Below, in pieces: positions 18,825 through 56,980 of a stretch of DNA of 64,000 nucleotides. The notes under the pieces were generated by a model. The model was not told the origin of the DNA. It made no database searches and saw only the letters and a list, made by a program, of their open reading frames with translations. The translations under genes were made by a program, and so were the position numbers. Numbering within the stretch: position 1 is the stretch's first letter; the number at the start of each line of letters is the position of its first letter. The DNA comes from Phreatobacter aquaticus. GTDB lineage: Bacteria > Pseudomonadota > Alphaproteobacteria > Rhizobiales > Phreatobacteraceae. The stretch spans positions 4,488,828 to 4,552,827 of the forward strand of contig NZ_CP039865.1 in assembly GCF_005160265.1 (NCBI RefSeq). The letters are read 5' to 3'.

Positions 18825-18827
18825 CAT

Positions 18828-37437: not shown

Positions 37438-39366
37438 ATGAGGTCGAATGAACCACCCGCGACGATCCGGCCAACCGGCCCAAGGCTGCTCCTGCGGCAG
37501 CTGTCGGCACTTGCCTCTCTGGTCACTGCTCACACCCCCGGCTTCCTCGCTCGCACGCTACTGCGCATCTTGCGCGAGGAAGGGATCGCCAGCGCAATCA
37601 GGCGGCTTCGCCGCAGGCTCGCCCCTGCCACCGAAACGGCTGACTACCCGCATTGGATTGCGGCTTATGACACCTTGAGTACCGCGACGCTCGGCCGCCT
37701 GCGCACCCGCGCGGCGGCCCTGCCTCGCCAGCCGCTCGTCTCCATCGTCATGCCCGTCTACGAGACGCCGGAGCGCTACCTGAGAGAGGCCATCGCCTCG
37801 GTACGGGCCCAGGTCTACGAGGCGTGGGAATTGTGCATCTGCGACGACGCATCGCGTGCCCCTCACATTCGCGCCGTCTTGGAGGCAGAGGCTGCAGGTG
37901 ATGCCCGGATCAAGATTGCCCGGCGCCACGACAATGGACGCATCTCCCGGGCATCGAACGACGCTCTCGCCCTTGCCACCGGCGAGTGGGTCGCCATGCT
38001 CGACCATGACGACGTGCTGCGCCCGCATGCGCTGTTCTGCATGGTCGAAGCCTTGGGGGCCAATCCCGAGGCGCAGATCCTTTATTCCGACGAAGACAAG
38101 ATCGACGACGCGGGCCACCGCTTCGATCCCTATTTCAAGCCCGACTTCTCCATAGACCTGCTGCTCGGCCAGAACTACCTGAACCACCTGACGATGCACC
38201 GCCGGGCCAATATCGAGGCGGTCGGTGGATGGCGCCCCGATTTTGACGGCAGTCAGGATTATGACCTGACGCTTCGGATCCTCGAACGGGTCGGAACTGA
38301 CCATGTCGTCCACGTGCCGCACATCCTCTACCACTGGCGCGCCGCTGCCGGATCGACCGCCCGCGCGCCCCAGGAAAAGAACTATGCCGTGGAGGCCGGA
38401 TTGCGCGCACTTCAGGGCCATGCCAACCGGGTCCTACCCGGCGCACGGGTGGAGATGACAGCCGGCGCGCCCTATTATCGCATCGCCTATCCGCTGCCCG
38501 CGCCGCCCCCGCTCGTCTCCATCATCATCCCGACACGGGACGAGGCCGCCGTGCTTGAGCGCTGCCTCGTCTCACTGTTCGAGCGGACCGACTATCGCGC
38601 CCTCGATATCATCATTGTCGACAATGGATCGATCGAACCAGATACCTTCGCGCTGTTCGACCGCTGGACCGCACGGCACGACTCCATCCGCGTGCTGCGC
38701 GATGACCGCCCCTTCAACTACTCCGCCCTCAACAATCGGGCGGTCCGGGAGGCGCGTGGTAGTCTGCTCTGCCTCCTGAACAACGACATCGAGGCTGTCG
38801 AACCCTCATGGCTCGGCGAGATGGTGTCGCTTGCCGTGCGTCCCGAGGTCGGATGCGTCGGCGCCAAGCTGCTCTATCCGAACGGCACGCTGCAGCATGG
38901 CGGCGTGATCCTGGGGATAGGTGGAGTGGCCGGCCACAGCCACAAATACGCGGCCGATGGGTATCCGGGCTATTTCCACCAGCTCAGCCTGCGCCGCACC
39001 GTCTCGGCGGTTACGGCTGCCTGCCTCGTTGTGAAGGCGTCGATCTTCGCCGAGGTCGGCGGCCTGGACGAGCAAGGGCTGGCGGTAGCCTTCAACGATG
39101 TGGACTTCTGCCTCAAGGTTCAGGAGGCAGGCTATCGCAACGTCTGGACCCCCTCGGCTCTCCTGATCCATCACGAGAGCTTGTCGCGCGGAGCTGATAC
39201 CACGCGTGAGAAGCAGCAGCGCTTCCTCTCCGAGATCGAGACAATGCGCAGGCGTTGGGGAACCATTTTATACACCGATCCGTTCTATTCCCCGAACCTC
39301 ACCCTTGTCAGCGAAGACAACAGCCTGGCCTTTCCACCACGGGTCCTGCTGGAGGATGTCGGGTAG
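37438..39366 (+). CDS. Double-domain family 2 glycosyltransferase
   Basis: The 642-residue protein carries two GT2 (GT-A) domains. The first starts at VSIVMPVYETPERYLREAI (about residue 101) with DHDDVL as metal-binding DxD. The second starts at VSIIIPTRDEAAVLERCL (about residue 362) with NNDIE. A C-terminal FNDVDFCLKVQEAGYRNVW follows. Such tandem GT2 proteins build O-antigen or exopolysaccharide chains on the cytoplasmic face. A basic N-terminal part may touch the membrane. It begins immediately after the previous stop codon, so translation is likely coupled. Confidence 0.9.
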   Translation: MRSNEPPATIRPTGPRLLLRQLSALASLVTAHTPGFLARTLLRILREEGIASAIRRLRRRLAPATETADYPHWIAAYDTLSTATLGRLRTRAAALPRQPLVSIVMPVYETPERYLREAIASVRAQVYEAWELCICDDASRAPHIRAVLEAEAAGDARIKIARRHDNGRISRASNDALALATGEWVAMLDHDDVLRPHALFCMVEALGANPEAQILYSDEDKIDDAGHRFDPYFKPDFSIDLLLGQNYLNHLTMHRRANIEAVGGWRPDFDGSQDYDLTLRILERVGTDHVVHVPHILYHWRAAAGSTARAPQEKNYAVEAGLRALQGHANRVLPGARVEMTAGAPYYRIAYPLPAPPPLVSIIIPTRDEAAVLERCLVSLFERTDYRALDIIIVDNGSIEPDTFALFDRWTARHDSIRVLRDDRPFNYSALNNRAVREARGSLLCLLNNDIEAVEPSWLGEMVSLAVRPEVGCVGAKLLYPNGTLQHGGVILGIGGVAGHSHKYAADGYPGYFHQLSLRRTVSAVTAACLVVKASIFAEVGGLDEQGLAVAFNDVDFCLKVQEAGYRNVWTPSALLIHHESLSRGADTTREKQQRFLSEIETMRRRWGTILYTDPFYSPNLTLVSEDNSLAFPPRVLLEDVG

Positions 39367-39468
39367 CCCCGCCGCCCTCTGGCAGGGCGCGCAGTACGCC
39401 GCCAAGGCCCGAATCGAATGCTATAGACAGGCAAAGAGGCGGTGCCGCCGCACCAAGACGCGAACCCG

Positions 39469-40356
39469 ATGAATCCAGAATTGAAGAACACGGCGATCGG
39501 ACGGGCCATATCCAGTCTCGGCAAGGGCACGCTGTCGGCCGCCAACCGGATAGCCTTGATGCTGTATCTGGCGGGTGAGCAGCGCCGCGCACAAGCGCCC
39601 GGAAGCCCGCCTGAGGCGATCCGCACGCGCTTGAAGACCGGCATTGTCGCCCATGTCTACTATCCCGACCTGTTCGGCGAGATCCTGGCCTGCCAGGACA
39701 ATCTGCCAGCCGATGCCATCTGCCACGTCAGCGCACCTCCCGATGTTGCGGAGGTGCTTGAGCCGCAAATTCGGGCAATGCCCAGCACACACCTCCATAT
39801 CGTCGAAAACCGGGGTCGTGACATCGCCCCCTTCCTCTCGATCTTGAAATCTGGCGCGCTGGACGGCCTCGATGCGGTGCTGAAAATCCATTCCAAACGT
39901 AGTCCCCACCTCTCCCATGGCGGATTGCTGCGGAGAGCCATGTTCCAGGCCCTGGCCGGTCGGCGCGACATCGTTGCCCGCGTCCTGGCCATCATGGAGG
40001 AACCGCAGGCCGGCATGGTCGGTTGGCGACGCGTATTCCTGACGCGGCAGCGCCACTGGCACGGCAACCGCGATCGGGTCGTGGCGCTCGCTGCTCAGCT
40101 TGATCCGCCGGCTCAGCCTGTCCTTTCGTTCTTTGGCGGCTCCATGTTCTGGTTCCGGCCGCAGGCACTCCGTTCCATTGCGGCTCTGCCGCTGTCGGCA
40201 TTGGATTTCGAGGCGGAAGCAGGACAGATCGACGGAACTCTGCACCATGCGATTGAGCGGCTCTTCGCCGTCGCTGCTGTAGCTGCAAGCTACCGCGTGG
40301 TCGATACGGATGGGCAAGTGCTTCTGGAGTGTGCCAGTCCACGCGTCATCGTGTAA
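39469..40356 (+). CDS. RgpF-domain protein (rhamnan synthesis F family)
   Basis: The 295-residue protein matches the RgpF domain found in rhamnose-glucose polysaccharide clusters. It has VAHVYYPDLFGEIL, an IVENRGRDIAPFLSIL segment and VLKIHSKRSPH, all hallmark stretches. RgpF-type proteins add side-chain or backbone sugars to rhamnans. Rhamnose precursor genes are present in this window. GTG 39442 is an alternative start. It overlaps by 11 bases the convergent sulfotransferase-like gene. Confidence 0.82.
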   Translation: MNPELKNTAIGRAISSLGKGTLSAANRIALMLYLAGEQRRAQAPGSPPEAIRTRLKTGIVAHVYYPDLFGEILACQDNLPADAICHVSAPPDVAEVLEPQIRAMPSTHLHIVENRGRDIAPFLSILKSGALDGLDAVLKIHSKRSPHLSHGGLLRRAMFQALAGRRDIVARVLAIMEEPQAGMVGWRRVFLTRQRHWHGNRDRVVALAAQLDPPAQPVLSFFGGSMFWFRPQALRSIAALPLSALDFEAEAGQIDGTLHHAIERLFAVAAVAASYRVVDTDGQVLLECASPRVIV

Positions 40357-41418
40357 AGCGGTCGCTCAAAGTACCAATTTCGGATGCAGTAAAGAAGTGC
40401 TGACAATATCGTGACCCATATATCTTATCGACCAGCGACCGACTGAAGCGTTGTCTCATCAGACGATCGTAGATATCTGGAACAGGGTGATTATTTTGGA
40501 CCTTAACGGACAAAGGACAACCACAAAACAAACTAAGAGGTTCCTGCAGACGATGAAGGGCATCAAGCCGATATAGAAAAACGGAGACCTGGCTCGTCTT
40601 GATGGTCACATGGCCTCTTTCTGTGGGAAATGGCGTATTGAAGACATCGATCCCTTGGAAGTAACCATGGTCGAACCATCCGGTTATTTTTTCAAAATCA
40701 GCCTCAATCAAAGTCTCAATCCCGTCCATGAAGGCTTCTGGATCACCAACAGAATCAAGGCTGGACGCAGGATCCCCCATTGACTGACAATAACCTGAGA
40801 TCAATCGCGAAATTGGATCGCGGACACCACTGATGAAATGGATATGCGGGGCGAGAGGGTGCCTGACAACCTCGGGATAAGAAAAAAACAATCCGGATAG
40901 CTTCTGATTGCTTCGGAGCTCCAGTGAAGATGAGGAATGGTGCCGAAAACCCCGGCTTCTTGCAGTGCCGACTGGATCGCCTTCGATCCTACCCGGCCCA
41001 TCTGGAACAGATGAAAGCGCGCGTTGATGATGTCGTCGGTCACCACATTAGGGATTCGGCCTTCGAAAGCGCCACGGTACATCCAATGGGCGATGGCGTC
41101 GCGAGGCGTCTGGAGCTTCAAATGCGGATATCGCGCAGCGTAAAAATCGGGATCGATGAACGAGTAGAAGAAGCGGCTATAGGACCGCCTCTCCCGCCAT
41201 CCCTGTTGGACAAAATGTCGGATAAGCTGGTCACCTTGCAGATGCGTTAGATCAGCAAATCCTTTGTGATGACCGAAGGTCCGATAGAATTCTGAATCAA
41301 AATGGCGCAACCAGACATGAATACTATCCAAAGATGTGTCTATGTCCTGAGGAAAATCACCGTTATTGAATAGTAACTCGTAGCCCAAACCTGATCTCCC
41401 GCCCATGCGCTTTCTCAT
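40346..41418 (-). pseudogene. Sulfotransferase / capsular polysaccharide synthesis (NKWYS-type) gene interrupted by a -1 frameshift at a T7 tract
   Basis: Two overlapping frames (41418 down to the T tract, then 40891 down to 40346) join into a protein of about 357 residues. The N-terminal half holds FIDPDFYAARYPHL and MYRGAFEGRIPN, a repeat module also found in the protein at 56981-60673. Then QMGRVGSKAIQSAL is a 5'-phosphosulfate-type loop, and after the shift FISGVRDPISRLISGYC is the 3'-phosphate-type motif. At 40884-40890 the coding strand reads G-TTTTTTT-C. One extra T, or a -1 slip, restores the frame. The site is in register as T-TTT-TTT. ATG 41418 or 41406 may start it. GC content is lower than in neighbours. 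Confidence 0.75.
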
Positions 41419-41535
41419 GTGCTGGCACAATGTACTAAAATGGCAGCCCTGCGAACTCCATATTGTCCGAGTGTGATAGGTTGTTCGTCGTTGGCTTTGA
41501 TGGCGATTGCCGTATCCGTGGAGTTTGTGACGACC

Positions 41536-42438
41536 ATGTTCCCTTTGGAACCCCACATTCGCGCCCTCGAGGCTGAGGCGATCGGCATCATCCGTGAAGC
41601 CGCGGCCGCATCCGCGCGTTCGGTGCTGCTCTATTCCATCGGCAAGGATTCCTCGGTCCTGCTCCATCTTGCGATGAAGGCCTTCGCCCCGGCTCCGCTG
41701 CCGATCCCGCTCTTGCATGTCGATACGACTTACAAGTTTCGCGAGATGATCGACTTCCGCGATGCGACCGTCGCCCGGCTTGGCCTGAAGCTGCTCATCG
41801 AGACCAATCACGCGGCCCTTGCCGAGGGTATCAACCCGTTCGACCACGACGCATCCACCTACACCGCCGCGATGAAGACCGTGCCGCTGCGCCATGCGCT
41901 CGATCGTCACGGCTTCGATATCGCAATCGGCGGCGCCCGGCGCGACGAGGAGCGCTCCCGAGCCAAGGAGCGCGTGTTCTCATTGCGCGAACCAGGCCAT
42001 GTCTGGAACCCGCGAAACCAGCGGCCCGAATTCTTCGGCCTCTACAACACGGCTCTCGCCCCCGGCTTCGGCTTCCGCTGCTTCCCCCTGTCGAACTGGA
42101 CCGAACTCGACGTCTGGCGCTACATCGCGGCCGAAGCCATCCCGGTCGTCCCGCTCTATTTCGCCAAGCCCCGTCCGGCCGTGTCGCGTGCCGGCCAATG
42201 GATCATGGTCGACGACGCCCGCTTCCGCCTGTTGCCGGGCGAAACCATCGAGAGCCGAACCATCCGGTTCCGCACGCTCGGTTGCTATCCCCTTTCGGCA
42301 GGCCTGGAATCGCAGGCGGGCACGGTTGCAGACATCATCGAGGAACTCGGGCAGGCCCGACGCTCCGAGCGTGTCGGGCGGGTCATCGATCATGTCGGCT
42401 CGACGATGGAAGAGAAGAAGCGGGAGGGCTATTTCTGA
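41536..42438 (+). CDS. cysD: Sulfate adenylyltransferase small subunit
   Basis: CysD joins ATP and sulfate to adenylylsulfate (APS) with CysN. The 300-residue PP-loop ATPase has [11 protein letters not shown] (residues 33-43), [15 protein letters not shown], and [21 protein letters not shown]. It also has the C-terminal GCYPLSAG and [10 protein letters not shown] that mark the true subunit. It is fused by overlap (TGATG) to cysNC. The location inside a polysaccharide cluster and next to sulfotransferase-like genes, rather than with cysteine-assimilation genes, suggests APS is made here for sulfating a glycan. The start could be earlier, but ATG 41536 fits the family. Confidence 0.95.
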
Positions 42439-44303
42439 TGCCTCCCTCCAGCATGCCGCCAGCCTATAGCCTGCCGCGCCTTCGCTTCATGACCTGTGGC
42501 GCGGTCGATGACGGCAAGAGCACGCTGATGGGCCGTCTGCTCTATGAGTGCGGCGCGATCTACGACGATCAGTTGGACGAGGTGCGGCGCGCTTCTGGCA
42601 GCACCTCGTCCGATGGCCTCGACCTCGCCTTCGTCGTCGACGGGCTGAAGATCGAGCGCGAGCAGGGCATCACCATCGATGTCGCCTATCGCTATTTCTC
42701 CACCGACCGGCGTGCCTTTCTGATCGCCGATGCTCCCGGTCATGAACAATATACCCGCAATCAAGCCGCCGCCGCGTCGCAGTCGGACATCGCTGTCGTC
42801 GTGGTTTCGGCGGTCGACGGGATGCGCATCCAGACCCGCCGGCACCTGACCATCGCCGCCATGTTTGGCGTCAACGATATCATTGTCGCCATCAGCAAGA
42901 TGGACCTCGCAGGCTTTTCGGAAGCCCGCTTTCAGGCGCTCGCCGGCGAGATGCAGGCCTTCGCGGCCCAACTCGGTATCCATCTCGTCGCCTGCATGCC
43001 GATCGCCGCCAGGGATGGCGACAACGTCACCACACGATCCGGACGCATGCCGTGGTACCAGGGGCCGCCTTTGCTCGAACTGCTGGAACAGGCCAAACCT
43101 CGCCAAGGGCAGGAGGCGGCGCTCCGGCTGCCCGTTCAAGTGACCGGAAGGATGCCGGGTGGCGGACGCGTGTCGCTCGGCACGATCGCCTCGGGCACGA
43201 TCGGGCTTGGCATGAGGGTCGCCGCCGATCCGGCATTCCCCGCCGAGGTCGTCGGCCTCTGGGAGGCAGGCAACGCCGTGACATCCGCTGAGGCCGGCGC
43301 GGCTGTCTCGGTCGAGCTCGCACCCGACGTCGATATCGGGCGTGGCGCCGTGCTCAGTGCCATCGCGGCGCCGGCTCAGCCCGCACTGCAATTGCGCGCC
43401 CGCCTTGTCTGGCTCGACCCCACGCCCTTGATGACCGGGCGCGACTATGACTGTCAGATATCCACGCAAAAGGTCGGGATCGGCATTTCGCGCATCGAAG
43501 GCGTCGTCGATCTGGACACGGCACGCCCGGACCAGAACCGTAGCGAAGTGGCCCTCAACGACATCGCCGAAGTCCTGATGACATTGTCCACACCGGCGGT
43601 CGCCATGCCCTTCGAGATGGAGCCACGCTTCGGGGCCTTCATCCTCGTGGACCGCGCGACACGCGCCACCATCGCGGCCGGCATTGTCCTCGACGTCACG
43701 CGGCGGGTGGCAGACCTGCCCTGGCAGGCGATCGAGGTCACGCCTGCGGCAAGAGCCAGCCTGCTCCGACAATCACCCTTCGTTCTCTGGTTCACCGGCT
43801 TATCCGGCGCCGGCAAGAGCACCATCAGCGGCATGCTCGATCGCAGACTGCATGCGCTCGGCCGGAATACTGTTGTGCTGGATGGCGACAACCTGCGCCA
43901 CGGGCTGAACGCCGATCTCGGGTTCTCCGATGCCGACCGTGTCGAGAACATGCGCCGCGTCGCCCATGCCGCCAATCTGATGGCCGATGCAGGGCTCATC
44001 GTCCTGGTGTCGCTGATCTCTCCGTTTGCGGCGGAACGGACGCGAGCCCGCGATGTCATCGGCAGCGAGCGCTTCGTGGAGGTCTTTGTCGACGCATCGA
44101 TCGAAACCTGCCGGCAGCGCGACCCGAAGGGCCATTATGCGCGCGCCGCCAGCGGCCAGCTCAGGCAATTCACCGGTGTCTCGGCAGTCTACGAGCCGCC
44201 GGATGCGCCCGATATCCACCTGCACACCGATACCGGCACGCCGGTCGACATGACCGATGAGATCATCGCACATCTGAGGAAGCAGGGCCTGCTCGCGGGA
44301 TAG
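42438..44303 (+). CDS. cysNC: Bifunctional sulfate adenylyltransferase large subunit / APS kinase
   Basis: The 621-residue fusion first activates sulfate as a GTPase (CysN) and then phosphorylates APS to PAPS (CysC). The GTPase part has GAVDDGKST (residues 21-29), the DAPGHEQYTRN switch and a SKMD nucleotide motif. The kinase part begins near residue 440 with GLSGAGKST (about 454) and has LDGDNLRHGLNADLGFSDADR and ISPFAAERTRAR. The stop of cysD and the start overlap at one base. PAPS is the sulfate donor for sulfotransferases, of which two are encoded nearby. Confidence 0.96.
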   Translation: MPPSSMPPAYSLPRLRFMTCGAVDDGKSTLMGRLLYECGAIYDDQLDEVRRASGSTSSDGLDLAFVVDGLKIEREQGITIDVAYRYFSTDRRAFLIADAPGHEQYTRNQAAAASQSDIAVVVVSAVDGMRIQTRRHLTIAAMFGVNDIIVAISKMDLAGFSEARFQALAGEMQAFAAQLGIHLVACMPIAARDGDNVTTRSGRMPWYQGPPLLELLEQAKPRQGQEAALRLPVQVTGRMPGGGRVSLGTIASGTIGLGMRVAADPAFPAEVVGLWEAGNAVTSAEAGAAVSVELAPDVDIGRGAVLSAIAAPAQPALQLRARLVWLDPTPLMTGRDYDCQISTQKVGIGISRIEGVVDLDTARPDQNRSEVALNDIAEVLMTLSTPAVAMPFEMEPRFGAFILVDRATRATIAAGIVLDVTRRVADLPWQAIEVTPAARASLLRQSPFVLWFTGLSGAGKSTISGMLDRRLHALGRNTVVLDGDNLRHGLNADLGFSDADRVENMRRVAHAANLMADAGLIVLVSLISPFAAERTRARDVIGSERFVEVFVDASIETCRQRDPKGHYARAASGQLRQFTGVSAVYEPPDAPDIHLHTDTGTPVDMTDEIIAHLRKQGLLAG

Positions 44304-44396
44304 GCGCTCGGCAAGCCTCCCTCCTTGGGGTATAAGCCCGGCGATCGCGCCTGATTCATGGGACGCGGGCGATCTGGCCACTGCGAGACACGAGGC

Positions 44397-45458
44397 ATGC
44401 GCATTCTTGTCACCGGCGGTGCCGGCTTCATCGGCTCCGCAGTCTGCCGCCACCTCCTGACCGAGGTCGGCGCGGAGGTGCTGAATGTCGACAAGCTGAC
44501 CTATGCCGGCAACCTGGCCTCGTTGCGCGACATCGACAATCGGCCAGGCTACCGGTTCGTGCGGGCCGACATCTGCGACCGGCCGGCCATGGATGCCCTG
44601 TTCGCCGATTTCCAACCCGACGGCGTGATGCATCTGGCGGCCGAGAGCCATGTCGACCGGTCGATCACCGGATCGGGCGCCTTCGTGCAGACCAATATCG
44701 TCGGCACCTTCACCCTGTTGGAGGCGGCGCGCGCCTATTGGCAGGGGCTGCCGAGCGAGAGAGAGGCCTCCTTCCGGTTCCTCAATGTCTCCACCGACGA
44801 GGTCTATGGATCGCTTGGGGACGACGGCCTTTTCACCGAGGCCACGCCCTATGACCCGAGCTCACCCTATTCTGCCTCCAAGGCCGCCGCCGACCATCTG
44901 GCCAGCGCCTGGGCGCGCACCTATGGCTTCCCCGTGGTGCTGTCGAACTGCTCAAACAATTACGGCCCCTACCATTTTCCCGAGAAGCTGATCCCGCTGG
45001 TGATCCTCAACGCGCTCCACGGCAAGCCGCTGCCGGTCTATGGCGACGGGGGCAACATCCGCGACTGGCTCTATGTCGACGACCACGCCCGCGCCCTCCA
45101 CCTGATCCTGACGCGCGGCCGGATCGGCGAGAAGTACAATGTCGGCGGCCGCAACGAGCGGAAAAATATCGATGTCGTGCGCCAGATCTGCGCGATTCTG
45201 GACCAGCTGAGCCCGGCGGGCCAACCGCATGACAGGCTCATCACCTTCGTGAAGGACCGCCCCGGCCACGACCAGCGCTATGCGATCGACGCGGCAAAGC
45301 TAGAGACCGAGCTCGGCTGGGGCGCCCGCGAGACCTTCGAGACTGGCGTGGAGAAGACCGTGCGCTGGTATCTGGAGAACGAGTGGTGGTGGCGGCCTCT
45401 GCGCGACAGCGTCTATGCCGGTGAGCGGCTGGGCCTTGCGCCCGCAGCCGGAGCCTGA
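44397..45458 (+). CDS. rfbB: dTDP-glucose 4,6-dehydratase
   Basis: RfbB/RmlB converts dTDP-glucose to dTDP-4-keto-6-deoxyglucose. The 353-residue enzyme has GGAGFIGS (residues 7-14), VSTDEVYG with the catalytic Thr-Asp-Glu, and [11 protein letters not shown] near residue 158 with Tyr and Lys. [17 protein letters not shown] and a VDDHARAL segment complete the family pattern. ATG 44397 has ACGAGG upstream. It heads the rfbB-rfbD-rfbA series and lies 93 bases after cysNC. Confidence 0.95.
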
Positions 45459-45461
45459 GCC

Positions 45462-46364
45462 ATGCGGATCGCCGTGACGGGCAAGGATGGGCAGGTTACC
45501 CGGGCTCTGCAGGCCGCGGCAGGCGGTGCAGTTGTCACGGTTGTCGCGCTCGGACGGCCGGAGCTCGACCTCGCACAACCGGACACTATCCTTCCGGCTC
45601 TCGCAGCCGCCGCTCCCGACATCATCGTCAATGCCGCTGCCTGGACAGCCGTCGATCAGGCGGAGGCAGAACCGGCACAGGCCCGCGCTGTGAACCAGAC
45701 GGGCGCCCGTGCAGTCGCCGAGGCCGCCGCGCGCCTTGGCGTTCCCATCATCCAGATCTCGACCGACTATGTCTTCGACGGCGCCAAGCGCAGCCCCTAT
45801 GTCGAGACCGACCCAGTCGGGCCGACCGGTGCCTATGGCGAAACCAAGCTCGCTGGTGAAATGGCTGTCGCCGCGGCCCAGCCCAACCATGCAATCCTGC
45901 GCACAGCGTGGGTTTTCGCGCCCGAAGGCAAGAATTTCGTGCGTGCCATGCTCAATCTCGCGCGCTCACGGCCTGAACTCGGAATCGTGGCCGATCAGCT
46001 TGGCAACCCGACCTACGCCCCCGACATCGCAGCCGGCATCATCGCGGTCGCACGCAATCTGGTGGCGGATAGCCGAGTCGACCTGCGCGGCGTCTTCCAC
46101 ATGACAGCTGGCGGCGAGACGACCTGGGCCGGTTTTGCGGAAGCGATCTTCGCCGGGTCGCGGGCCCGGGGAGGCCCCGCGGCAGGGGTCCGCCCCATCG
46201 CAACGGCCGACTATCCGACACCGGCCCGGCGCCCCGCCAATTCCCGGCTCGATTGCAGCAAGCTGGAGGCGCTCCACCGCGTCCGTCTCCCGTCGTGGCC
46301 CAGCGGGCTGGAGCGCTGTCTTGAGCGCCTTGTCCCCGCTGAATTTTCTCGTGAGGCGCCATGA
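45462..46364 (+). CDS. rfbD: dTDP-4-dehydrorhamnose reductase
   Basis: RfbD/RmlD is the last step of dTDP-L-rhamnose synthesis. The 300-residue protein has the NADPH loop [12 protein letters not shown], an [16 protein letters not shown] segment, STDYVFDG, and a YGETKLAGE motif with Tyr and Lys. [15 protein letters not shown] follows. It lies 3 bases after rfbB and overlaps rfbA by 4 bases (ATGA), so the three are translationally linked. Confidence 0.94.
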
Positions 46365-47233
46365 AGGGCATCATTCTCGCCGGTGGCAGCGGCACGCGGC
46401 TGCATCCCATGACGATGGTGACATCGAAGCAGCTCCTGCCTGTCTACGACAAGCCGATGATCTATTATCCGCTTTCGGTGCTGATGCAGGCCGGCATCCG
46501 CGACATCCTGCTGATTTCCACGCCACAGGATTTGCCAAACTTCCGGCGCCTGCTGGGGGACGGCTCGGCCTGGGGCATTTCGCTCACCTATGCGGAACAG
46601 CCTCGCCCCGAAGGCCTGGCACAGGCCTTCATCATCGGCGCAGACTTTATCGCTGGTGGCCCTTCTGCGCTGATCCTCGGCGACAATATCTTCTATGGCG
46701 CGGGCCTGCCGGAGATCCTGCTCCGGGCGAGGGAACAGACATCGGGCGCGACGGTCTTCGGTTATCACGTGACCGACCCGGAACGCTACGGCGTGGCCGA
46801 GTTTGGTCCCGACATGCAGGCCGTCTCCATCGAGGAGAAACCGGCAAAGCCGCGGTCGAACTGGGCGGTGACGGGGCTCTATTTCTACGATGCGTCCGTG
46901 GTCGACATCGCCGCCAATATCAGGCCGTCACACCGCGGCGAGCTTGAGATCACTGACGTCAACCGCACCTATCTGGAACGGGGCGCATTGCGTGTCGAGA
47001 AATTCGGCCGCGGCTTCGCCTGGCTCGACACTGGAACGCCGGATTCGCTCGCCGATGCCACCAATTTCGTCCGGGCCCTGGAAAAGCGGCAGGGAACACG
47101 CATCTGCTGCCCCGAGGAAGTGGCCTACGAAATGGGCTTCATCGACCGCGACCAGCTACAACGGCTGGGTAAAGACCTCGCAAAGAGCAGCTATGGGCAA
47201 TATTTGCTTGCGGTGGCAGATGGGCGTATCTGA
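46361..47233 (+). CDS. rfbA: Glucose-1-phosphate thymidylyltransferase
   Basis: RfbA/RmlA makes dTDP-glucose from glucose-1-phosphate and dTTP. The 290-residue nucleotidyltransferase starts [18 protein letters not shown] with the catalytic GGSGTRL and has [12 protein letters not shown]. It also has [10 protein letters not shown] with the metal-binding Asp and [12 protein letters not shown]. It completes a run of three rhamnose genes. The fourth, rfbC, is at 18270-18824. Confidence 0.96.
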
Positions 47234-47252
47234 GTGATATTACAGATATGAA

Positions 47253-48047
47253 ATGCAGCCAAGAATGAACTACCGGCGTCGCCTTGTTCTTACCTGGCAA
47301 CTCGCACTGCGCGAGATCGAAGCCCGCTATCGCGGATCGATCCTTGGCATGGCGTGGTCACTCATCAACCCTCTACTCACTCTTGCCGTCTTCACCTTCG
47401 TCTTTGGCGTGGTGTTTCAGGCACGCTGGAGCCAGAATCAAGCCTCTACCTTCGATTTCGCCATCATGACTTTCGCGGGTTTGATGGTGTTCAACGTCTT
47501 CGCCGAAGTGGTAGGCAAATCTCCGAGCCTCATCACGAGCCAGCCGAACTTGGTGAAGAAGGTCATTTTTCCGCTTGCGATCCTCCCCCTGATCACACTC
47601 ACAGCAGCACTGTTCCATGCGGCAATTGCCCTTGCGCTGCTGCTCTTACTCCAAGGCATCTTCGGTTCTGGATTGCATCTGAGCGCGCTTGCGCTGCCAA
47701 TCGTGCTCGCTCCGCTGCTTCTGTTCACAGTCGGCGCCAGTTGGTTCCTGTCCGCCCTGGGGGTCTATCTCAGGGATATTGGCCAGATCATCGGGCCACT
47801 CGTCACCATGCTGATGTTCCTCAGTCCCATCTTCTACCCGATTGCCGCCCTGCCGAGCTGGGTCAGGCCGATCGCCATTGCCAATCCGCTGGCCGTCAGC
47901 ATTGAGCAGACACGTGATGCGCTGATCAATGGTCACTTGCCGGATCCCGGCATATGGGCACTGGCCATGGCAACCGGCCTCATATCGGCCGGTCTTGGCT
48001 TCCTGTTCTTCCGCAAGACCCGCAACGGGTTCGCGGATGTCCTCTGA
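47253..48047 (+). CDS. ABC-2 type polysaccharide export permease (Wzm)
   Basis: The 264-residue permease has six membrane helices and the family's opening, RRLVLTWQLALREIEARYRGSILG, with a SWLINP-like WSLINPLLTLAVFTF. FLSPIFYPIAALP sits at the last periplasmic loop. Wzm exports an undecaprenyl-linked glycan through the inner membrane with Wzt. It overlaps the first wzt gene by 11 bases. It is the only such permease in the window although two Wzt ATPases are present. Confidence 0.92.
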   Translation: MQPRMNYRRRLVLTWQLALREIEARYRGSILGMAWSLINPLLTLAVFTFVFGVVFQARWSQNQASTFDFAIMTFAGLMVFNVFAEVVGKSPSLITSQPNLVKKVIFPLAILPLITLTAALFHAAIALALLLLLQGIFGSGLHLSALALPIVLAPLLLFTVGASWFLSALGVYLRDIGQIIGPLVTMLMFLSPIFYPIAALPSWVRPIAIANPLAVSIEQTRDALINGHLPDPGIWALAMATGLISAGLGFLFFRKTRNGFADVL

Positions 48048-49422
48048 TCTCGCCATCATCGCGCACGACATCTCCAAGGCGTTCCGTATCTACGCTCGGC
48101 CCGAAGACCGCTTGATGGAGCTCGCCAGCATCGGGCGCATCAAGCGGCATCGCGAGTTTCAGGCGCTGCGCGGCGTCAACCTAGAGGTCCGCCGCGGCGA
48201 GACCGTCGGCATCATCGGTCGCAATGGCTGCGGAAAGTCGACGCTCCTGCAGATCATCTGTGGCATTCTTCCGCCGACGTCTGGGGAAATCAAAACCAAT
48301 GGCAGGATTGCGGCTCTCCTCGAACTCGGCGCCGGCTTCAACGGCGAGTTCACGGGCCGCGAGAATGTGTATCTCAATGGCGGGATTCTCGGGCTGACTC
48401 GCGCGGAGATGGACAGCCGTCTCGAGGCGATCTTCTGCTTCGCGGACATTGGTGATTTCATCGACAGACCCGTGAAGACCTATTCAAGTGGCATGTTCGT
48501 CCGGCTGGCATTTGCAACCGCTATCAATGTCGACCCGGACATTCTCGTGGTCGATGAGGCGCTTTCCGTCGGAGACGAAGCCTTCCAGCGAAAGTGTTTC
48601 GCGCGCATCGAACAGATCAAGCAGCGCGGCAGCACGATCCTTTTCGTGTCCCATGGCGCGCAGACAATCGTGCAGTTATGCGACCGGGCGATCCTCCTCG
48701 ACGGCGGGGAGATGCTGATCGATGGCGCGCCGAAAGCTGTGGTGCACCATTATCAGCGCCTCGCCCATGCAAGCCCGGATGGTGCAGCGGAAATCCGGCG
48801 GCGCATCCTGACAGCGGAAGCGGAGTCGCCCGGCCAGGAACTCGCCGGCCAGGGGCCTGTCAGCCCAACCGTGATCTCGACTGACACTGCGATCGCGCCC
48901 AGGCCGCTCTCCTCTGACACCACAGATCCGGCCGAGCATTTCGATCCCGACACCGTGTCGCAATCGGCCAGCCGCCATGAGAAGTGCGGGGCGGCCATCG
49001 GTCGGACGCGCCTTTTGACGCTGAGTGGTAACGAAGTGAACGTCATCAGGCGCGGCCGGCGCTTTCGCTTTGAGTACGAGGTCGACTTTGACCGCAATGC
49101 CGATCAGGTCGGTTTCGGGCTCGGCTTGACGACGCTGGCCGGCCTCCAGCTTGCGGGCTGGGCCGCCAGGGCAAACCGTGTCGCCTCGATTGCGAGAGCC
49201 ACCCGCTACATTGCATCGTTCGAGTTCCAGTGCAGCCTGATGCCTGGGACGTATTTCTTCACCTGCCACGTTCGTGGCACGGTGGCCGGTGAGGAGCAGA
49301 CCATGGATCGCATTGCCGACGCATTCATGTTTCGCGTCTCGGACGATGGCGATCGGAACGCGACGGGGTTGGTCGAGATCGGCATCATTGCCAGTGCAAG
49401 CCAGACTGACGGCGGAGTCTGA
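48037..49422 (+). CDS. ABC polysaccharide export ATPase with C-terminal glycan-binding domain (Wzt, copy 1)
   Basis: The 461-residue protein has an ATPase of about 245 residues with Walker A GRNGCGKST, TYSSGMFVRLAFA as ABC signature, and ILVVDEALSVGD as Walker B. A linker and a C-terminal beta-sandwich (about residues 300-450) follow. The sandwich resembles the Wzt_C domain, which reads the non-reducing end or cap of the glycan before export. The start at 48037 has the ATG inside the permease frame. The ATPase core is about three-quarters identical by eye to copy 2 at 51614-52927, while the C-terminal domains differ. Confidence 0.92.
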   Translation: MSSDLAIIAHDISKAFRIYARPEDRLMELASIGRIKRHREFQALRGVNLEVRRGETVGIIGRNGCGKSTLLQIICGILPPTSGEIKTNGRIAALLELGAGFNGEFTGRENVYLNGGILGLTRAEMDSRLEAIFCFADIGDFIDRPVKTYSSGMFVRLAFATAINVDPDILVVDEALSVGDEAFQRKCFARIEQIKQRGSTILFVSHGAQTIVQLCDRAILLDGGEMLIDGAPKAVVHHYQRLAHASPDGAAEIRRRILTAEAESPGQELAGQGPVSPTVISTDTAIAPRPLSSDTTDPAEHFDPDTVSQSASRHEKCGAAIGRTRLLTLSGNEVNVIRRGRRFRFEYEVDFDRNADQVGFGLGLTTLAGLQLAGWAARANRVASIARATRYIASFEFQCSLMPGTYFFTCHVRGTVAGEEQTMDRIADAFMFRVSDDGDRNATGLVEIGIIASASQTDGGV

Positions 49423-49423
49423 C

Positions 49424-50347
49424 ATGCTGGCCGCCGCTCGCGATCAATCGGATATCGCCTTCGAGCATCGCTGGCCCGCCCTCTTCAATCTCGGTGACTA
49501 TCTTTGTAGTCCACGGCACTATTTCAAGTTTGAGCCCTGGCGAGACGAGGGCGGCCAACCGCGGCGCGTGACCATCGTTGGCGGCGGTGCCTTTAATCAG
49601 CTTGGCCAGGAGGCTGGCTCAACGGGTGCCGGCCGCGTTCATATCGCCTGGGGTATCGGACGCAGTGTTGCCTATGGAAATACTGATGTCGCGGATTTGG
49701 GAGCCGCCCGCGCATTCCATTCAGAGTTTTCGACGCGCGACCCCGATCTTGCCGCACAGGGCGCTTCGCTTGTGCCCTGTGTCAGTGTGATGCACGAGCT
49801 CGTCGATCTCCCCGTGGGCGATGAAACAGGGCTATTCTTGAACGGCGACCGGGCTGTCGGCGACAGCCGCGAGCTGCGGACCATCGCCGCGGGGAAGGAC
49901 CTCGTTTTCGGAACCAATGCCATGGCGGAACATGATTTCATGGCTCAATTGGCGCGGACGAACCGGCTGATAACAAACTCATATCACGTCGCATATTGGG
50001 GGCTCCTCTCGGGCCGAGCGGTGGCGCTGATCGGCTATTCCTCCAAATTTGACAGTCTGCTGACCCTGCTTGGCCTGACCACCAAGCCGCTCTGCTATGC
50101 TCGCGGCGAGATTGAGGATTTGAAGCGGGCGGTAGCCAAGAGCTTCGATCAGGCAGCTTTCGTCCGTCTGCCCGATCATCTGACACTGAAAGAGGACTTT
50201 CGGCAGTTGAACCGTGCATTTGCCAGGCGCCTGGTCGAGCGAGGGCTCGTCGCTGCCGCGGAGCCGTGTTCAAGTGCAGAGACCCTGCAGCAACGGATGG
50301 TTATGCTGCACGAACGCTACAAGACCGTCCTACAAGCTCCGATCTGA
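49424..50347 (+). CDS. Polysaccharide pyruvyltransferase-like protein
   Basis: The 307-residue protein has the PS_pyruv_trans outline: an N-terminal FNLGDYL segment, VTIVGGGAFNQLG, HIAWGIGRS and a C-terminal LITNSYHVAYWGLLSGRAVALIGYSSK. That last stretch is the family's conserved His-containing loop with SYH in place of the usual SRLH. It would add a pyruvate ketal to a sugar, giving a negative charge on the glycan. The call is moderately sure because other conserved points are weak. A GGAG ribosome-binding site precedes the start 2 bases after the wzt stop. Confidence 0.65.
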   Translation: MLAAARDQSDIAFEHRWPALFNLGDYLCSPRHYFKFEPWRDEGGQPRRVTIVGGGAFNQLGQEAGSTGAGRVHIAWGIGRSVAYGNTDVADLGAARAFHSEFSTRDPDLAAQGASLVPCVSVMHELVDLPVGDETGLFLNGDRAVGDSRELRTIAAGKDLVFGTNAMAEHDFMAQLARTNRLITNSYHVAYWGLLSGRAVALIGYSSKFDSLLTLLGLTTKPLCYARGEIEDLKRAVAKSFDQAAFVRLPDHLTLKEDFRQLNRAFARRLVERGLVAAAEPCSSAETLQQRMVMLHERYKTVLQAPI

Positions 50348-50350
50348 GCC

Positions 50351-51373
50351 ATGGGCAGGATCGTGTTCACGGGCATTGCCTCCCGATCGATCGCGAACTG
50401 GGTGCCGGCCTTGCATGAGCTGCGCTCTCGCGGCCACGACGTCCGCTCATTGCTGTTTCCCCATATCCCCGACCCGGATAGCCAGCACCTCACGGATCTG
50501 GGCTTCGAGGAGCTCGGCACCTTCCCGATTGCCGAGCACCTCAGTCGACTGCCGCCTCAGGAAGCTACAGCCCTGGCCATGTCCGCGCTTGCGTTGGTCA
50601 GAAAATCACGGCCGGACGTCCTGTTGCTCACGACCTGCCACGCAGGGCCTGAACTCGTTCTGGCCGGTGTCCTGGCGACCGAGCCCGGTCGTCCTGTTGT
50701 GATCGGCTGCCAGCACGGCTTTGTCCAGAACTGGGATGTGTACTGGGCGCAATTCCCGTTCGACCGCTTCCTTGTGTTCGGTCAAAGATTTCAGCAGGTA
50801 GCCCCTCCGCATCTGGCATCTCGCATTTCGGTCGGCGGCCTCCCAAAGCTCGACTGCATCAAGCCGATGCCACGGGACGATTTCGAACGCGATCAGCGGC
50901 CCATGCTCTTCGCGGCACAGATGATCCCGTCGGATCGGCTCAAGAGCCTGCTGATCAGCCTACCCTTGTTGACAGGGAGGCCGGTGCACATCCGCCCGCA
51001 TCCGGAGCATCGAACAGCCTTCGCCGGTTTGCCTGAAGATCTGCGTGTTGTTGATTGCGAAGAGGCGATCGAGAGCCAGATGGACCGGTACTCGCTCCTC
51101 CTGACCACCGGCTCCACGACCGTGCTCGAAGCCATGGCAGCTGGCATGCCGGTTGTCGTGTTGCCGGAGCAACGAGGTGAGCATTACGCCGATGCCGGCA
51201 TCGTGGCCTCGTCGATGACAGGCTCCGATATTCTGGTCTTGGCGCGCGCGCAACAGACACGCGATGGACGTGTGCGGCGCGAGCAGTTCCTGGCGACAGC
51301 GACGGGTTCGGCGGTTGCGGGCCGCACCGAGATAGCGGCCGAGGCGATTGAGGCGCCCATGCGATCGGCCTGA
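50351..51373 (+). CDS. GT-B fold glycosyl/glycerophosphotransferase-like protein
   Basis: The 340-residue protein has a GT-B look: a short N-terminal domain (IVFTGIASRSIANWVPAL), a QHGFVQNWDVYWAQFPFDRFLVFG segment, IRPHPEHR, and LLLTTGSTTVLEAMAAGMPVVVLP. This Ser/Thr-Gly-Ser-Thr-T-V-L-E-A loop is typical of CDP-glycerol transferase-like and UDP-GlcNAc 2-epimerase-like proteins. It probably adds a sugar or polyol phosphate to the glycan, but the donor is unknown. It lies 3 bases after the previous gene in the same operon. Confidence 0.68.
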   Translation: MGRIVFTGIASRSIANWVPALHELRSRGHDVRSLLFPHIPDPDSQHLTDLGFEELGTFPIAEHLSRLPPQEATALAMSALALVRKSRPDVLLLTTCHAGPELVLAGVLATEPGRPVVIGCQHGFVQNWDVYWAQFPFDRFLVFGQRFQQVAPPHLASRISVGGLPKLDCIKPMPRDDFERDQRPMLFAAQMIPSDRLKSLLISLPLLTGRPVHIRPHPEHRTAFAGLPEDLRVVDCEEAIESQMDRYSLLLTTGSTTVLEAMAAGMPVVVLPEQRGEHYADAGIVASSMTGSDILVLARAQQTRDGRVRREQFLATATGSAVAGRTEIAAEAIEAPMRSA

Positions 51374-51613
51374 TCGGCTCTCGCTTGCAAGGCGGAGGAA
51401 CTGCAGGGCATCGACGCCGGAAAGCAAGGGCATGAACTGGCTCTCGCGCGCTCCCGCACCCTCCGACATCGCTGCCGAGAACACGTCGAGATGCTAGCAC
51501 GATTCTGGAATGGTGGTGGCCCCCCCTCGGGTGACGGGCTATAACTGCGAGCGTCCCTGAATCGCGGGGGCCGAACCTCATCGTTTTTCACCGGCCCCGC
51601 GGGAGCTTTGTTA
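51374..51613. promoter_or_regulatory. Leader region with a hairpin at the ribosome-binding site of wzt copy 2
   Basis: No gene is supported in these 240 bases. A near-perfect 10-bp stem, CGCGGGGGCCG (51563-51573) with CGGCCCCGCG (51592-51601), encloses an 18-base loop and ends exactly at the GGGAGC ribosome-binding site (51601-51606) of the next gene. Pairing could limit ribosome access. Upstream I see no strong promoter pair. Confidence 0.4.
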
Positions 51614-52927
51614 ATGTCCTCCGACGTCGCCATTCGGGTCGAGGGCCTGACCAAAAGCTTCCGCCTCTTCGAGCGCCCAGAGCACCGGCTACTCGAACTC
51701 ATGAGCTTCGGCCGCGTGCAGCGGCACCGCACTTTCACCGCGCTGAAGGACGTGTCGCTGGAAATCCGCCGCGGCGAGACGGTCGGAATTGTCGGCCGCA
51801 ACGGCTGCGGGAAATCGACTCTGCTGCAGGTTATCTGCGGCATCCTTCAACCGACCGCGGGCACGGTCACGACCCATGGCCGCATCGCCGCCCTGCTCGA
51901 ACTCGGCGCCGGATTCGACGGCAATTTCACTGGCCGCGAGAATGTCTACCTGAATGGTGCGATCCATGGCTGCACCCGCGCCGAGATGGACGAGCGTTTC
52001 GAGGCCATCGCGGCCTTTGCCGATATCGGCGAGTTCCTCGACCGGCCGGTGAAGACCTATTCCAGCGGCATGTTCGTGCGCCTCGCCTTCGCCACCGCGG
52101 TCAACGTCGATCCAGACATCCTCGTGGTGGACGAGGCACTGGCGGTCGGCGACGAGGCATTCCAGCGCAAGTGCTTCGCGCGCATCGAGCAGATCAAGGA
52201 GCGCGGTGCGACGGTCCTGTTCGTCAGCCATGCGGCGCAAACAATCATCCAGCTTTGCGACCGCGCGGTGCTAATGGCCGGCGGCGAGAAGCTGATGGAG
52301 GGGACGCCAAAGGCTGTAGTCACAACATATCAACAGCTGAACGCCGCGAGGCCAGACCAAGCCGCACACCTCAGGTCCGGCCTGACCAGAGCGCAAGTCA
52401 AGCCAAAGCACCAAGGCCAAGAAACAGAAGGGGCGACCGAAACCGGGGATCATTTCGATCCAACTATCGAATCCCAGAGCCGCACTGTTACCGCATCGTC
52501 AGGGGTGCAGATAACGGACGTACAGCTGCAGACGCTTGACGGCAGGCAAGTCAATCGGCTCGTCGCGGGACGGCGTTATCTCGTCACCTTCACGGCGCAG
52601 TTCACGATAGATTCAGATGACGTCGGAATCGCAATGTCAATAAGAACACCCAATGGTACCGCGATTGCAGGCGTAAGCACTCAGAAGTCGGCTGTGATCC
52701 GAATTAGCATCAAAGCAGCCGACTACAATATTTTTAATATTGAGTTCGATGCCAGACTAGCGCCCGGTTCATATTTCATAAATGTTACCGTCAACAGCGC
52801 GTCTTTGGGAACGATGGGTAGAATCACCGATGCATTGATGTTCATCATAAATCATGAAGAGGACGACATGCTTATTGCACCAGCGGATTTACATTTTCGT
52901 CTAAATAACGAAAGGGCAAACCGGTGA
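51614..52927 (+). CDS. ABC polysaccharide export ATPase with divergent C-terminal domain (Wzt, copy 2)
   Basis: The 437-residue protein repeats the layout of copy 1: GRNGCGKST, TYSSGMFVRLAFA and DILVVDEALAVGDE in the N-terminal ATPase. A different C-terminal domain (about residues 285-425) still shows SQS, an R-R-Y-L-V-T-F pattern, and GRITDALMFI, so it is a diverged Wzt_C sandwich. The ATPase part has the GC content of its neighbours, but from about 52320 onward the gene turns AT-rich, like the next gene. GGGAGC lies 7 bases before the ATG. No second permease is present, so it may share Wzm at 47253. Confidence 0.92.
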   Translation: MSSDVAIRVEGLTKSFRLFERPEHRLLELMSFGRVQRHRTFTALKDVSLEIRRGETVGIVGRNGCGKSTLLQVICGILQPTAGTVTTHGRIAALLELGAGFDGNFTGRENVYLNGAIHGCTRAEMDERFEAIAAFADIGEFLDRPVKTYSSGMFVRLAFATAVNVDPDILVVDEALAVGDEAFQRKCFARIEQIKERGATVLFVSHAAQTIIQLCDRAVLMAGGEKLMEGTPKAVVTTYQQLNAARPDQAAHLRSGLTRAQVKPKHQGQETEGATETGDHFDPTIESQSRTVTASSGVQITDVQLQTLDGRQVNRLVAGRRYLVTFTAQFTIDSDDVGIAMSIRTPNGTAIAGVSTQKSAVIRISIKAADYNIFNIEFDARLAPGSYFINVTVNSASLGTMGRITDALMFIINHEEDDMLIAPADLHFRLNNERANR

Positions 52928-53631
52928 TCACCCTACATATTGGCACCCACAAGACTGGCTCAAAATCGATCCAATCGTATATACACGAAAACTCTATATA
53001 TATGAGAGCCAATGGAATTGCTTTCTATGAGGGCACTCACATAAATCCATCAAACCATACTGAATTACACCTATGCTGCCTACGATCAGAACGAGACTCT
53101 TTTGCAAAATATAATTGGCCCAATAGAAATTTTGGCCAAGCTTTCCAAGCCCACAATATAGAGAGGATACGAGATTTTATCTCGAATTCCCCTTATGAAA
53201 ATTTTATATTCTCAAACGAAGACCTTTCATGGCTACGCTTTGATGATGAACTCGAGGCGCTGGTTAAAATATTCTCAAATCTTAATCAACCTATAAGAAT
53301 TATCGTTTTTACAAGAAAAAAAGACGATTTTTTGCGTTCATACAGGAGTCAAATACTCAAGAAACCGGGTCGAAAACCAAATGATAAACCGCTGTCCGTC
53401 CTAAATTGTGAGTACAACTCATGGGTCGCCGATCACGCTTCAATGATTGAACTCTACAATAGGCACTTTGGTCAAGAAAACGTCGATCTAGTCAGTTACG
53501 ATGAAGAGATGACGATTCACGGAAACATTGTATACTCATTCTGGGACCGCGTGTGCAGCAATATCCCGCTGCCGGTCAGTCCTGACACATACTTCCGAAA
53601 TGTAACACATGATATTAAATCCACTTTGTAG
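52924..53631 (+). CDS. Sulfotransferase-like protein
   Basis: The 235-residue protein has a phosphosulfate-type loop at its N-terminus (HIGTHKTGSKSIQSYI, residues 5-20) and IIVFTRKKDDFLRSYRSQ near the middle. That matches the 3'-phosphate-binding Arg/Ser region of PAPS-dependent sulfotransferases. It is short for the family, about 235 residues, but both key regions are present. Composition is strikingly AT-rich (about 38 percent GC at 52981-53040, by count) unlike its neighbours, a sign of recent transfer. It overlaps wzt copy 2 by 4 bases and the convergent next gene by 17 bases. Confidence 0.75.
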   Translation: MITLHIGTHKTGSKSIQSYIHENSIYMRANGIAFYEGTHINPSNHTELHLCCLRSERDSFAKYNWPNRNFGQAFQAHNIERIRDFISNSPYENFIFSNEDLSWLRFDDELEALVKIFSNLNQPIRIIVFTRKKDDFLRSYRSQILKKPGRKPNDKPLSVLNCEYNSWVADHASMIELYNRHFGQENVDLVSYDEEMTIHGNIVYSFWDRVCSNIPLPVSPDTYFRNVTHDIKSTL

Positions 53632-56653: not shown

Positions 56654-56980
56654 CGTTGCCCCTTTGGGATAACCCAGTTTGATGTTTATTCTGGCACGTT
56701 GAGAGGACCAGAACATGAGGCGCAGCCGCTTCAGGGAAGCGCAGATCGTCGCGGTGCTGCAGGGCCGCTCGGCTGCGCCTCGATAGCGCCTGTCCGGTTC
56801 TTAACTGGCGCGGCCGATTTCGTTTGGGCCCGGCAGGCTTCGTAAAAGCGAGTCTATTCTGGTCAGCGGCACACGAGTCACTTATCGATAGAAGGGTGAG
56901 TGTGGCTTGGATAGGCCTTCTCTAGCGGTCGGCTCCGTTCGATCATCTGCAATATTGGCGAGGCGGCCCACGGCTCCGTG
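56654..56980. mobile_element. Gap with an IS3-family transposase remnant
   Basis: No full gene lies here. The start of an IS3-type orfA is present at 56715-56786, preceded by GAGAGGACCAGAAC, the kind of leader found before such orfA genes. The rest of the element is absent, and the sequence after 56790 shows no recognisable transposase. The border with the next gene's start is therefore probably a rearrangement scar. Confidence 0.55.
56715..56786 (+). pseudogene. IS3-family transposase OrfA, N-terminal fragment
   Basis: Translation from ATG 56715 gives MRRSRFREAQIVAVLQG, which matches the classic start of IS3-group OrfA proteins (SRF-x-E-x-QI-x-VL). The frame then ends at a TAG (56784-56786) after 23 residues. 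Only this 5' stub survives. Confidence 0.7.

Follow-up and report, generated by a model that had tools for sequence, protein, structure and literature searches.

A sole CysDNC sulfate-activation locus within a rhamnose-type Wzm/Wzt glycan cluster of Phreatobacter aquaticus, with a predicted role in glycan sulfation

The window examined here is a 64,000-nucleotide stretch of Phreatobacter aquaticus DNA (C1:4488828-4552827 of the single 4,974,952-bp contig; feature coordinates below are window positions), in which CysD and CysNC, the proteins of sulfate activation, are encoded inside a surface-glycan cluster. From 37438 to 53631 the gene order reads GT2 (glycosyltransferase family 2), rgpF, ST1 (reverse), cysD, cysNC, rfbB, rfbD, rfbA, wzm, wzt1, a possible pyruvyl transferase gene, a DUF6716 glycosyltransferase gene, wzt2 and ST2, with ST1 and ST2 denoting two sulfotransferase-like genes. 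The host genome is termed G000 and further Phreatobacter genomes G001-G011, giving 12 examined in the genus. In the feature list and thereafter, adenosine 5'-phosphosulfate and 3'-phosphoadenosine 5'-phosphosulfate are abbreviated APS and PAPS, and ATP-binding cassette ABC.

37438..39366, forward: glycosyltransferase family 2 protein, assigned by reading; 71% and 68% identical to the same-position genes of G007 and G010
39442..40356, forward: RgpF-domain (rhamnan synthesis F) glycosyltransferase, PF05045 E 9.4e-29; syntenic in G007 and G010
40346..41418, reverse: ST1, NKWYS-family sulfotransferase-like, frameshifted; G+C 49%; not at the corresponding position in G007 and G010
41536..42438, forward: CysD, ATP sulfurylase small subunit; TIGR02039 425.9 bits, cut-off 396.6
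42453..44303, forward: CysNC, ATP sulfurylase GTPase subunit fused to APS kinase; TIGR02034 and TIGR00455
44397..45458, forward: RfbB, dTDP-glucose 4,6-dehydratase; NCBIfam
45462..46364, forward: RfbD, dTDP-4-dehydrorhamnose reductase; NCBIfam
46361..47233, forward: RfbA, glucose-1-phosphate thymidylyltransferase; NCBIfam
47265..48047, forward: Wzm-type ABC permease for glycan export; NCBIfam model, below cut-off, with relatives in the congener modules
48037..49422, forward: Wzt 1, ABC ATPase with Wzt C-terminal domain; PF00005, PF14524
49424..50347, forward: possible polysaccharide pyruvyl transferase; PF04230 E 0.22, below cut-off
50351..51373, forward: putative glycosyltransferase, DUF6716; PF20471 E 6.6e-8
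51614..52927, forward: Wzt 2, ABC ATPase with Wzt C-terminal domain; 64% identical to the Wzt of the G010 module
52924..53631, forward: ST2, HIGxHKTG-type sulfotransferase by profile match and predicted fold, 235 aa; G+C 40%
18270..18827, reverse: RfbC, dTDP-4-dehydrorhamnose 3,5-epimerase; PF00908 E 1.3e-65
56978..60673, forward: large glycosyltransferase, WbsX-like by reading; 78% identity in the G010 cluster

The placement of cysD and cysNC between rgpF and rfbB-rfbD-rfbA in a Wzm/Wzt glycan cluster of an alphaproteobacterial host, as given in the initial annotation, is borne out by profile matches, with CysD, CysN and APS kinase above cut-off. The CysD frame is open from 41419, and its start at 41536 was picked by comparison with relatives. 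Within CysNC, the CysN part scores 422.9 bits against a cut-off of 336.1 (TIGR02034) and the APS kinase part 214.3 against 138.7 (TIGR00455), while the fused-protein model NF004035 returns 714.8 against 715. The rfbC gene stands outside the rfbB-rfbD-rfbA run, and its distant copy at 18270-18827 completes the dTDP-rhamnose set.

Analysis of the genome reveals that the glycan-cluster copy of cysD-cysNC is the only one found. A CysNC query retrieves one full copy in G000, the other six matches being partial (24.9-58.7 bits); the PF01507 profile recovers a single protein, CysD of the glycan cluster; and the PF01747 (Sat) profile gives no match. An APS/PAPS reductase (CysH) was not found in G000 with either the PF01507 profile or a congener CysH as query, the dissimilatory AprAB not being searched. 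This congener query returns CysD (E 1e-8) and one match at E 0.05, which contains an internal stop and runs antisense to a gene reading as a transporter-binding protein. Across the 12 genus genomes, PF01507 is matched once in G000, G004 and G007, not at all in G001 (89% complete), and two to three times in the other eight; the CysHs of G002, G003, G005 and G010 carry CCxxR and CxxC motifs, which we take to be an APS-reductase signature. The initial annotation had remarked that cysteine-assimilation genes are not adjacent, and indeed no reductive cysteine genes lie beside cysD-cysNC in the window; the PF01077 nitrite/sulfite-reductase genes are located elsewhere, at C1:1381606 (1.38 Mb; the counterpart of the congeners' cysI, and the one whose neighbourhood was inspected) and C1:3664358 (3.66 Mb), as against 4.53 Mb for cysD.

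Comparison with congeners shows that the assimilation locus of G000 is eroded. In G003, G005 and G011 this locus reads sbp-cysT-cysW-cysA-cysG-DUF2849-cysI-cysH-DUF934-cysD-cysNC, and G008 displays the same order with cysA, cysG and DUF2849 masked by a spurious antisense open reading frame (ORF) of the gene caller (genes were named with NCBIfam in G005 and by similarity or order in the other congeners). The G000 counterpart, whose flanks are shared with the congeners at 67-90% identity (the first flank gene is missing in G005 and G011), retains an sbp stub, DUF2849 (PF11011), cysI (87-88% identity) and DUF934 (PF06073) alone; the 62-codon stub corresponds to the beginning of the sulfate-binding protein, with a best E of 3e-10 when four sequences were compared. 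Gone are the sulfate ABC transporter, cysG, cysH, cysD and cysNC. Because no CysH was found and the assimilation locus is eroded, the sole CysDNC copy argues for dedication to the glycan rather than against it. The initial annotation had reasoned that a sole locus would have to serve cysteine synthesis too; the locus is the only one found, yet that inference fails, since a known reductase was looked for and not found, and the same observation favours dedication.

The retention of cysI and DUF934, odd if the cell makes no sulfite, is what would be expected were an unrecognised APS/PAPS reductase to feed the retained sulfite reductase, with CysDNC also serving cysteine. Such cryptic assimilation is judged unlikely: G000 has no second PF01507 protein, and cysH is missing exactly at its congener position, along with cysG and the sulfate transporter. 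A match to the G000 CysI at E 1e-30 is lacking in G001, G004, G007 and G015 (other sulfite reductases were not sought there), so that the CysH-less G004 and G007 retain CysDNC though without such a CysI. The CysI-like protein at 1.38 Mb, moreover, falls below cut-off in all NCBIfam models listed and scores best with those for nitrite-reductase-like NirA, and sulfite can also derive from sulfonates.

The arrangement around CysDNC recurs in relatives. The core GT2-rgpF-cysD-cysNC is found in two congeners, G007 and G010; in G010 it continues into a DUF2793 gene, rfbB, rfbD, rfbA, rfbC, wzm and wzt, and in G007 the rfb genes lie beyond Wzm/Wzt and sulfotransferase genes. Bosea caraganae carries Wzm-Wzt, DUF2793, cysD, cysNC, rfbB, rfbD, rfbA and rfbC, followed by an rgpF-like gene. 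The G010 and G007 CysNC proteins are 62% and 59% identical to the G000 copy, compared with 49% for the next best-scoring match among 397 genomes of the order. In the CysD tree the four module copies form one clade (support 100/100), with the G010 housekeeping copy elsewhere; a long-branch join is flagged beside the module clade, and the clade's neighbours are uncertain. The Bosea CysD nests within the Phreatobacter module copies (95/94), which suggests that the module was exchanged between families.

Several minor features accompany these copies. A DUF2793 gene is the immediate neighbour of cysD or cysNC in G007, in G010 and in Bosea caraganae (L031:12288-13481, L035:5887-7407 and L013:7597-8826; called by PF10983 in the two congeners and by likeness in Bosea) and also occurs on a Phaeobacter plasmid (L084:28410-29666), while none is seen beside cysDNC in the window; DUF2793 (PF10983) is presumably a family of phage or gene-transfer-agent type. 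The housekeeping CysN of G002, G006, G009 and G010 (L025, L030, L033, L034) matches to residue 413 of the CysNC query and appears to lack an APS-kinase domain, and in G010 the APS-kinase domain seen lies on the glycan-cluster copy. G003 encodes an extra long-branched CysD-like protein (L027:9669-10574) beside a DabA/DabB-type pair by reading, with no recognised CysN adjoining.

Examination of the sulfotransferase neighbourhoods, a comparison proposed in the initial annotation, shows that all four modules and the G004 locus have a sulfotransferase-type gene no more than about 11 kb from CysDNC, with the families differing. In G000, CysDNC lies 0.1 kb from ST1 and 8.6 kb from ST2; the corresponding distance is 7.5 kb for G010, 9.8 kb (to the sulfotransferase end of the protein) for G007, 10.5 kb for Bosea and 0.3 kb for G004. 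Specifically, G010 places a PF13469 (Sulfotransfer_3) gene directly after wzt, the same slot as ST2 in G000. The G007 protein has 1672 residues; an N-terminal GMHRSGTS loop precedes its glycosyltransferase-like parts, and its first 500 residues match Sulfotransfer_4 weakly (E 0.005, below cut-off). The Bosea counterpart is a separate gene, 56% identical, with no Pfam match at E 0.01. In the CysH-less G004, cysD and cysNC are followed by a protein with a HVGFAHTGTTSLQ loop and no Pfam match, which direct BLAST aligns to ST2 at E 0.014. Since the position is kept and the kinds vary, a conserved PAPS core with exchangeable sulfotransferases is suggested. The same recurrence bears on a signalling role, in which regulation of biofilm polysaccharide would be the main use of the PAPS from the module. 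Such a role has been proposed for Vibrio vulnificus, where calcium-induced brp expression and rugosity are reported to be lost in cysD and cysC mutants, whereas expression rises in a cysH mutant (PMC6113621). Signalling does not need a sulfotransferase-type gene near every one of these loci, and this explanation is considered highly improbable.

The initial annotation had placed a sulfotransferase-like gene on either side of the sulfate-activation and rfb genes. The claim holds for ST2 at 52924-53631; that at 40346-41418, ST1, is not one ORF. As a single sequence ST2 yields no Pfam match above cut-off (one unrelated, E 0.067), no NCBIfam match, one PDB match (a sialyltransferase, E 0.073) and no relatives among viral sequences. 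With family alignments as queries, the profile matches a solved sulfotransferase (PDB structure), and seven IMG/VR viral contigs (L113-L119) encode family relatives, which were drawn on in the fold analysis. The structural model of ST2 adopts a sulfotransferase fold whose nearest solved folds are heparan sulfotransferases, and residues 1-235 of the model align with the heparan N-sulfotransferase domain. Residues H5, G7, K10, T11, Q17 and R131 are invariant in both family alignments and S139 in the first alone; these presumably represent the N-terminal phosphosulfate-binding loop and the second PAPS-binding site. By profile match and modelled fold, ST2 is a predicted PAPS-dependent sulfotransferase. 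The PF13469 profile, run on 14 genomes, finds matches in G003, G010 and G015 and none in G000, where PF00685, PF03567 and PF10364 were not searched.

ST1 consists of two overlapping frames, an N-terminal one from 41418 and a C-terminal one at 40346-40891, and the frame changes in or close to a run of seven identical bases (40882-40888). For the C-terminal piece, PF10364 (NKWYS, 'putative capsular polysaccharide synthesis') scores 33.6 bits against a cut-off of 25.1, and two sulfotransferase families match below cut-off; the three PDB matches of this piece (E 0.3-1.7) are not meaningful. Over 165 columns it is 30% identical to residues 80-240 of an intact 247-residue NKWYS protein on a Thalassovita plasmid. 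The opening loop of the Thalassovita protein looks like the loop that ends the ST1 N-terminal piece, although BLAST does not align them there; this piece has no match in the plasmid search and no sensible alignment with the Thalassovita protein, and part of it resembles the N-terminal repeats of the WbsX-like glycosyltransferase (56978-60673). A homopolymer sequencing error is a plausible cause of the frameshift, since the complete genome of the freshwater isolate Phreatobacter sp. NMCR1094 was obtained with PacBio RS II and HGAP 3 and short reads are not named in the part of the description available. Phase-variable sulfation was also considered: two of the three homopolymer runs of at least 7 bases in the window fall in ST1 and ST2, but shuffles give at least two in 15.6%, which is not above chance.

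The G+C contents of ST1 (49%) and ST2 (40%), against 58-68% in the other genes from GT2 to Wzt 2, suggest that both sulfotransferase genes came from elsewhere. Together with the ST1 frameshift and the short ST2, this composition would also suit a former sulfated-glycan cluster in decay, with both sulfotransferases broken and PAPS synthesis left as a relic. Against such a relic stand the intact CysD and CysNC, with CysD, CysN and APS kinase all above their model cut-offs, the presence in ST2 of every residue common to all sequences of both alignments, the whole-length alignment of its model to the heparan N-sulfotransferase domain, and the plausible homopolymer error in ST1. Decay of the module is accordingly regarded as improbable, if a little less so than cryptic assimilation.

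Taken together, the CysDNC locus of this strain is probably dedicated to glycan sulfation (estimated probability about 0.74). CysD and CysN would make APS, and the fused CysC domain would convert it to PAPS; the adjoining sulfotransferases would then move sulfate onto a glycan, most likely onto rhamnose-containing units from RgpF and the neighbouring glycosyltransferases, and the putatively sulfated product would be exported by Wzm/Wzt. With cysH, the housekeeping cysD-cysNC, cysG and the sulfate ABC transporter lost, activated sulfate would not be expected to reach cysteine, because both the reductive branch and the housekeeping genes are gone. That all sulfotransferases of this strain work is a less secure proposition than dedication itself. 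In outline, the initial proposal that a PAPS module is devoted to a sulfated rhamnose glycan is correct, and the case for it is stronger than first put, being supported by the absence of a recognisable CysH, the eroded assimilation locus and the recurrence in relatives. A broader proposal, to which we give even odds, is that glycan sulfation has taken over sulfate activation in several Phreatobacter lineages and the reductive branch has been lost, leaving cells that would be unable to use sulfate as a sulfur source; one horizontally exchanged CysDNC core with interchangeable sulfotransferase slots would persist, and sulfate would be imported only for surface display.

Several observations weigh against dedication to glycan sulfation. 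cysI is kept in G000, and no importer to supply the module with sulfate was identified, sulfate permeases not having been searched for in the genome. The assembly shows ST1 with a frameshift, and all seven plasmid relatives examined (321-465 aa) exceed ST2 (235 aa) in length, the missing C-terminus of ST2 having left no trace downstream; sulfotransfer might thus be impaired in this strain. The genes called sulfotransferases in G004, G007 and Bosea are candidates identified mainly by motif and place, with less support than ST2 or the G010 protein. Profile A1, searched in 13 genomes, recovers ST2 alone and none of the G004, G007, G010 and Bosea genes, so the label spans several distant families.

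The survey of the order is likewise restrained. CysNC is present at E 1e-150 or better in 256 of 397 genomes, 15 of which have exactly one PF01507 match (G000, G004, G007, G015, G020, G034, G049, G052, G065, G181, G198, G264, G268, G328 and G362; G020, G034 and G264 miss the limits of 90% completeness or 5% contamination, and the single match of G198 may not be CysD). Neighbourhoods were examined for 10 of the 12 candidates outside the genus, G052 and G198 being left out and short contigs included (L123, 9.6 kb; L130, 3.9 kb). A sulfotransferase-like gene lies within about 8 kb of CysDNC in 3/10 CysH-less candidates versus 1/20 controls (Fisher P 0.095), the controls being genomes with at least two PF01507 matches taken from a score-ordered listing rather than at random. 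The positives are G015 and G065, which belong to one family, and G181; other such loci give 0/12. As a general law, 'no CysH means a sulfotransferase next door' was therefore rejected on these counts. In the genus, the same window gives 2/3 CysH-less loci versus 0/7 housekeeping loci (P 0.067), the G007 gene lying beyond it; counting G007 (9.8 kb) gives 3/3 (P 0.008), in a comparison that is neither blind nor independent, since those sulfotransferases were among the seeds. Loss of CysH with CysDNC kept is thus uncommon in the order, and outside Phreatobacter such loci do not as a rule have a sulfotransferase nearby.

The kind of cluster is already known from sulfated capsules. Rhizobial NodP and NodQ supply PAPS for the sulfation of Nod factors and surface polysaccharides, and the present locus resembles them in having a dedicated ATP sulfurylase and APS kinase that would feed sulfotransferases; Sinorhizobium plasmid relatives of CysNC are 45-46% identical among the matches listed. 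Vibrio sp. KMM 8419 and Cobetia marina KMM 1449 produce sulfated, rhamnose-containing capsules of determined structure, and the Vibrio authors regard PAPS genes and sulfotransferases in one cluster as a hallmark of sulfated polysaccharide synthesis (PMC11641403, PMC11766843). Those clusters resemble the present one in combining cysD/cysN/cysC (cysNC in Cobetia), dTDP-rhamnose genes, RgpF, sulfotransferases and ABC export; CysD/CysN/CysC in a glycan cluster, a predicted sulfotransferase gene, and sugar-nucleotide and ABC export genes are all found here. They differ in their marine hosts and Kps-type export, as opposed to a freshwater alphaproteobacterium with Wzm/Wzt. Moreover, the Vibrio PAPS genes are described as second copies and the Cobetia cluster includes cysQ and a sulfate permease, whereas here the copy is the only one found and no CysH is recognisable. 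Pontiella, another producer of sulfated polymers, is reported to retain cysDNCHIJKM. The new element is the loss of the reductive branch, an evolutionary decoupling of activation from reduction.

Partial parallels occur on plasmids. Phaeobacter pP54_e shares with this cluster and its relatives an ST2 relative (23% identical to ST2), a sulfotransferase family 2 gene, rfb, type I secretion, an M10-type protease and DUF2793, but no cysD/cysN is listed in the 37 kb viewed of its 68 kb, for which the gene table is incomplete; we take the Phaeobacter rhamnose plasmids to have a role in biofilm. Paracoccus saliphilus p242883 has cysD-cysN beside glycosyltransferases, with sulfotransferases (including an ST2 relative) and ABC export in the same region, but its CysD is 56% identical and no rfb is listed in the stretches viewed. 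A literature search with limited listings found no report of sulfation in Phreatobacter, which is no claim of absence from print.

Because bacterial surface sulfation and cysteine synthesis both draw on APS and PAPS, the two are usually difficult to disentangle. A freshwater isolate that can be cultured, has a single CysDNC and lacks a recognisable CysH would offer a clean natural test system, in which loss of cysD should abolish sulfation while sparing sulfur nutrition. A search rule for producers of sulfated glycans is also suggested, namely CysDNC present, CysH absent and a sulfotransferase adjoining, although the order survey indicates that it has many exceptions. There is interest in sulfated glycans of bacteria as heparin-like materials, and among solved folds the heparan sulfotransferases are the nearest to ST2.

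Downstream, a reverse-strand ORF of 232 aa (53615-54313) abuts the 3' end of ST2 and has no match in Pfam (E 0.01) or NCBIfam (E 0.1). A serralysin-type RTX metalloprotease gene (54327-56255; PF08548, PF00353) adjoins ST2, with related RTX genes in the G010 (58% identical) and G007 (65% identical) clusters, and an HlyD/ABC pair (21195-24256; PF13437, PF00005, PF00664) lies 30 kb upstream.

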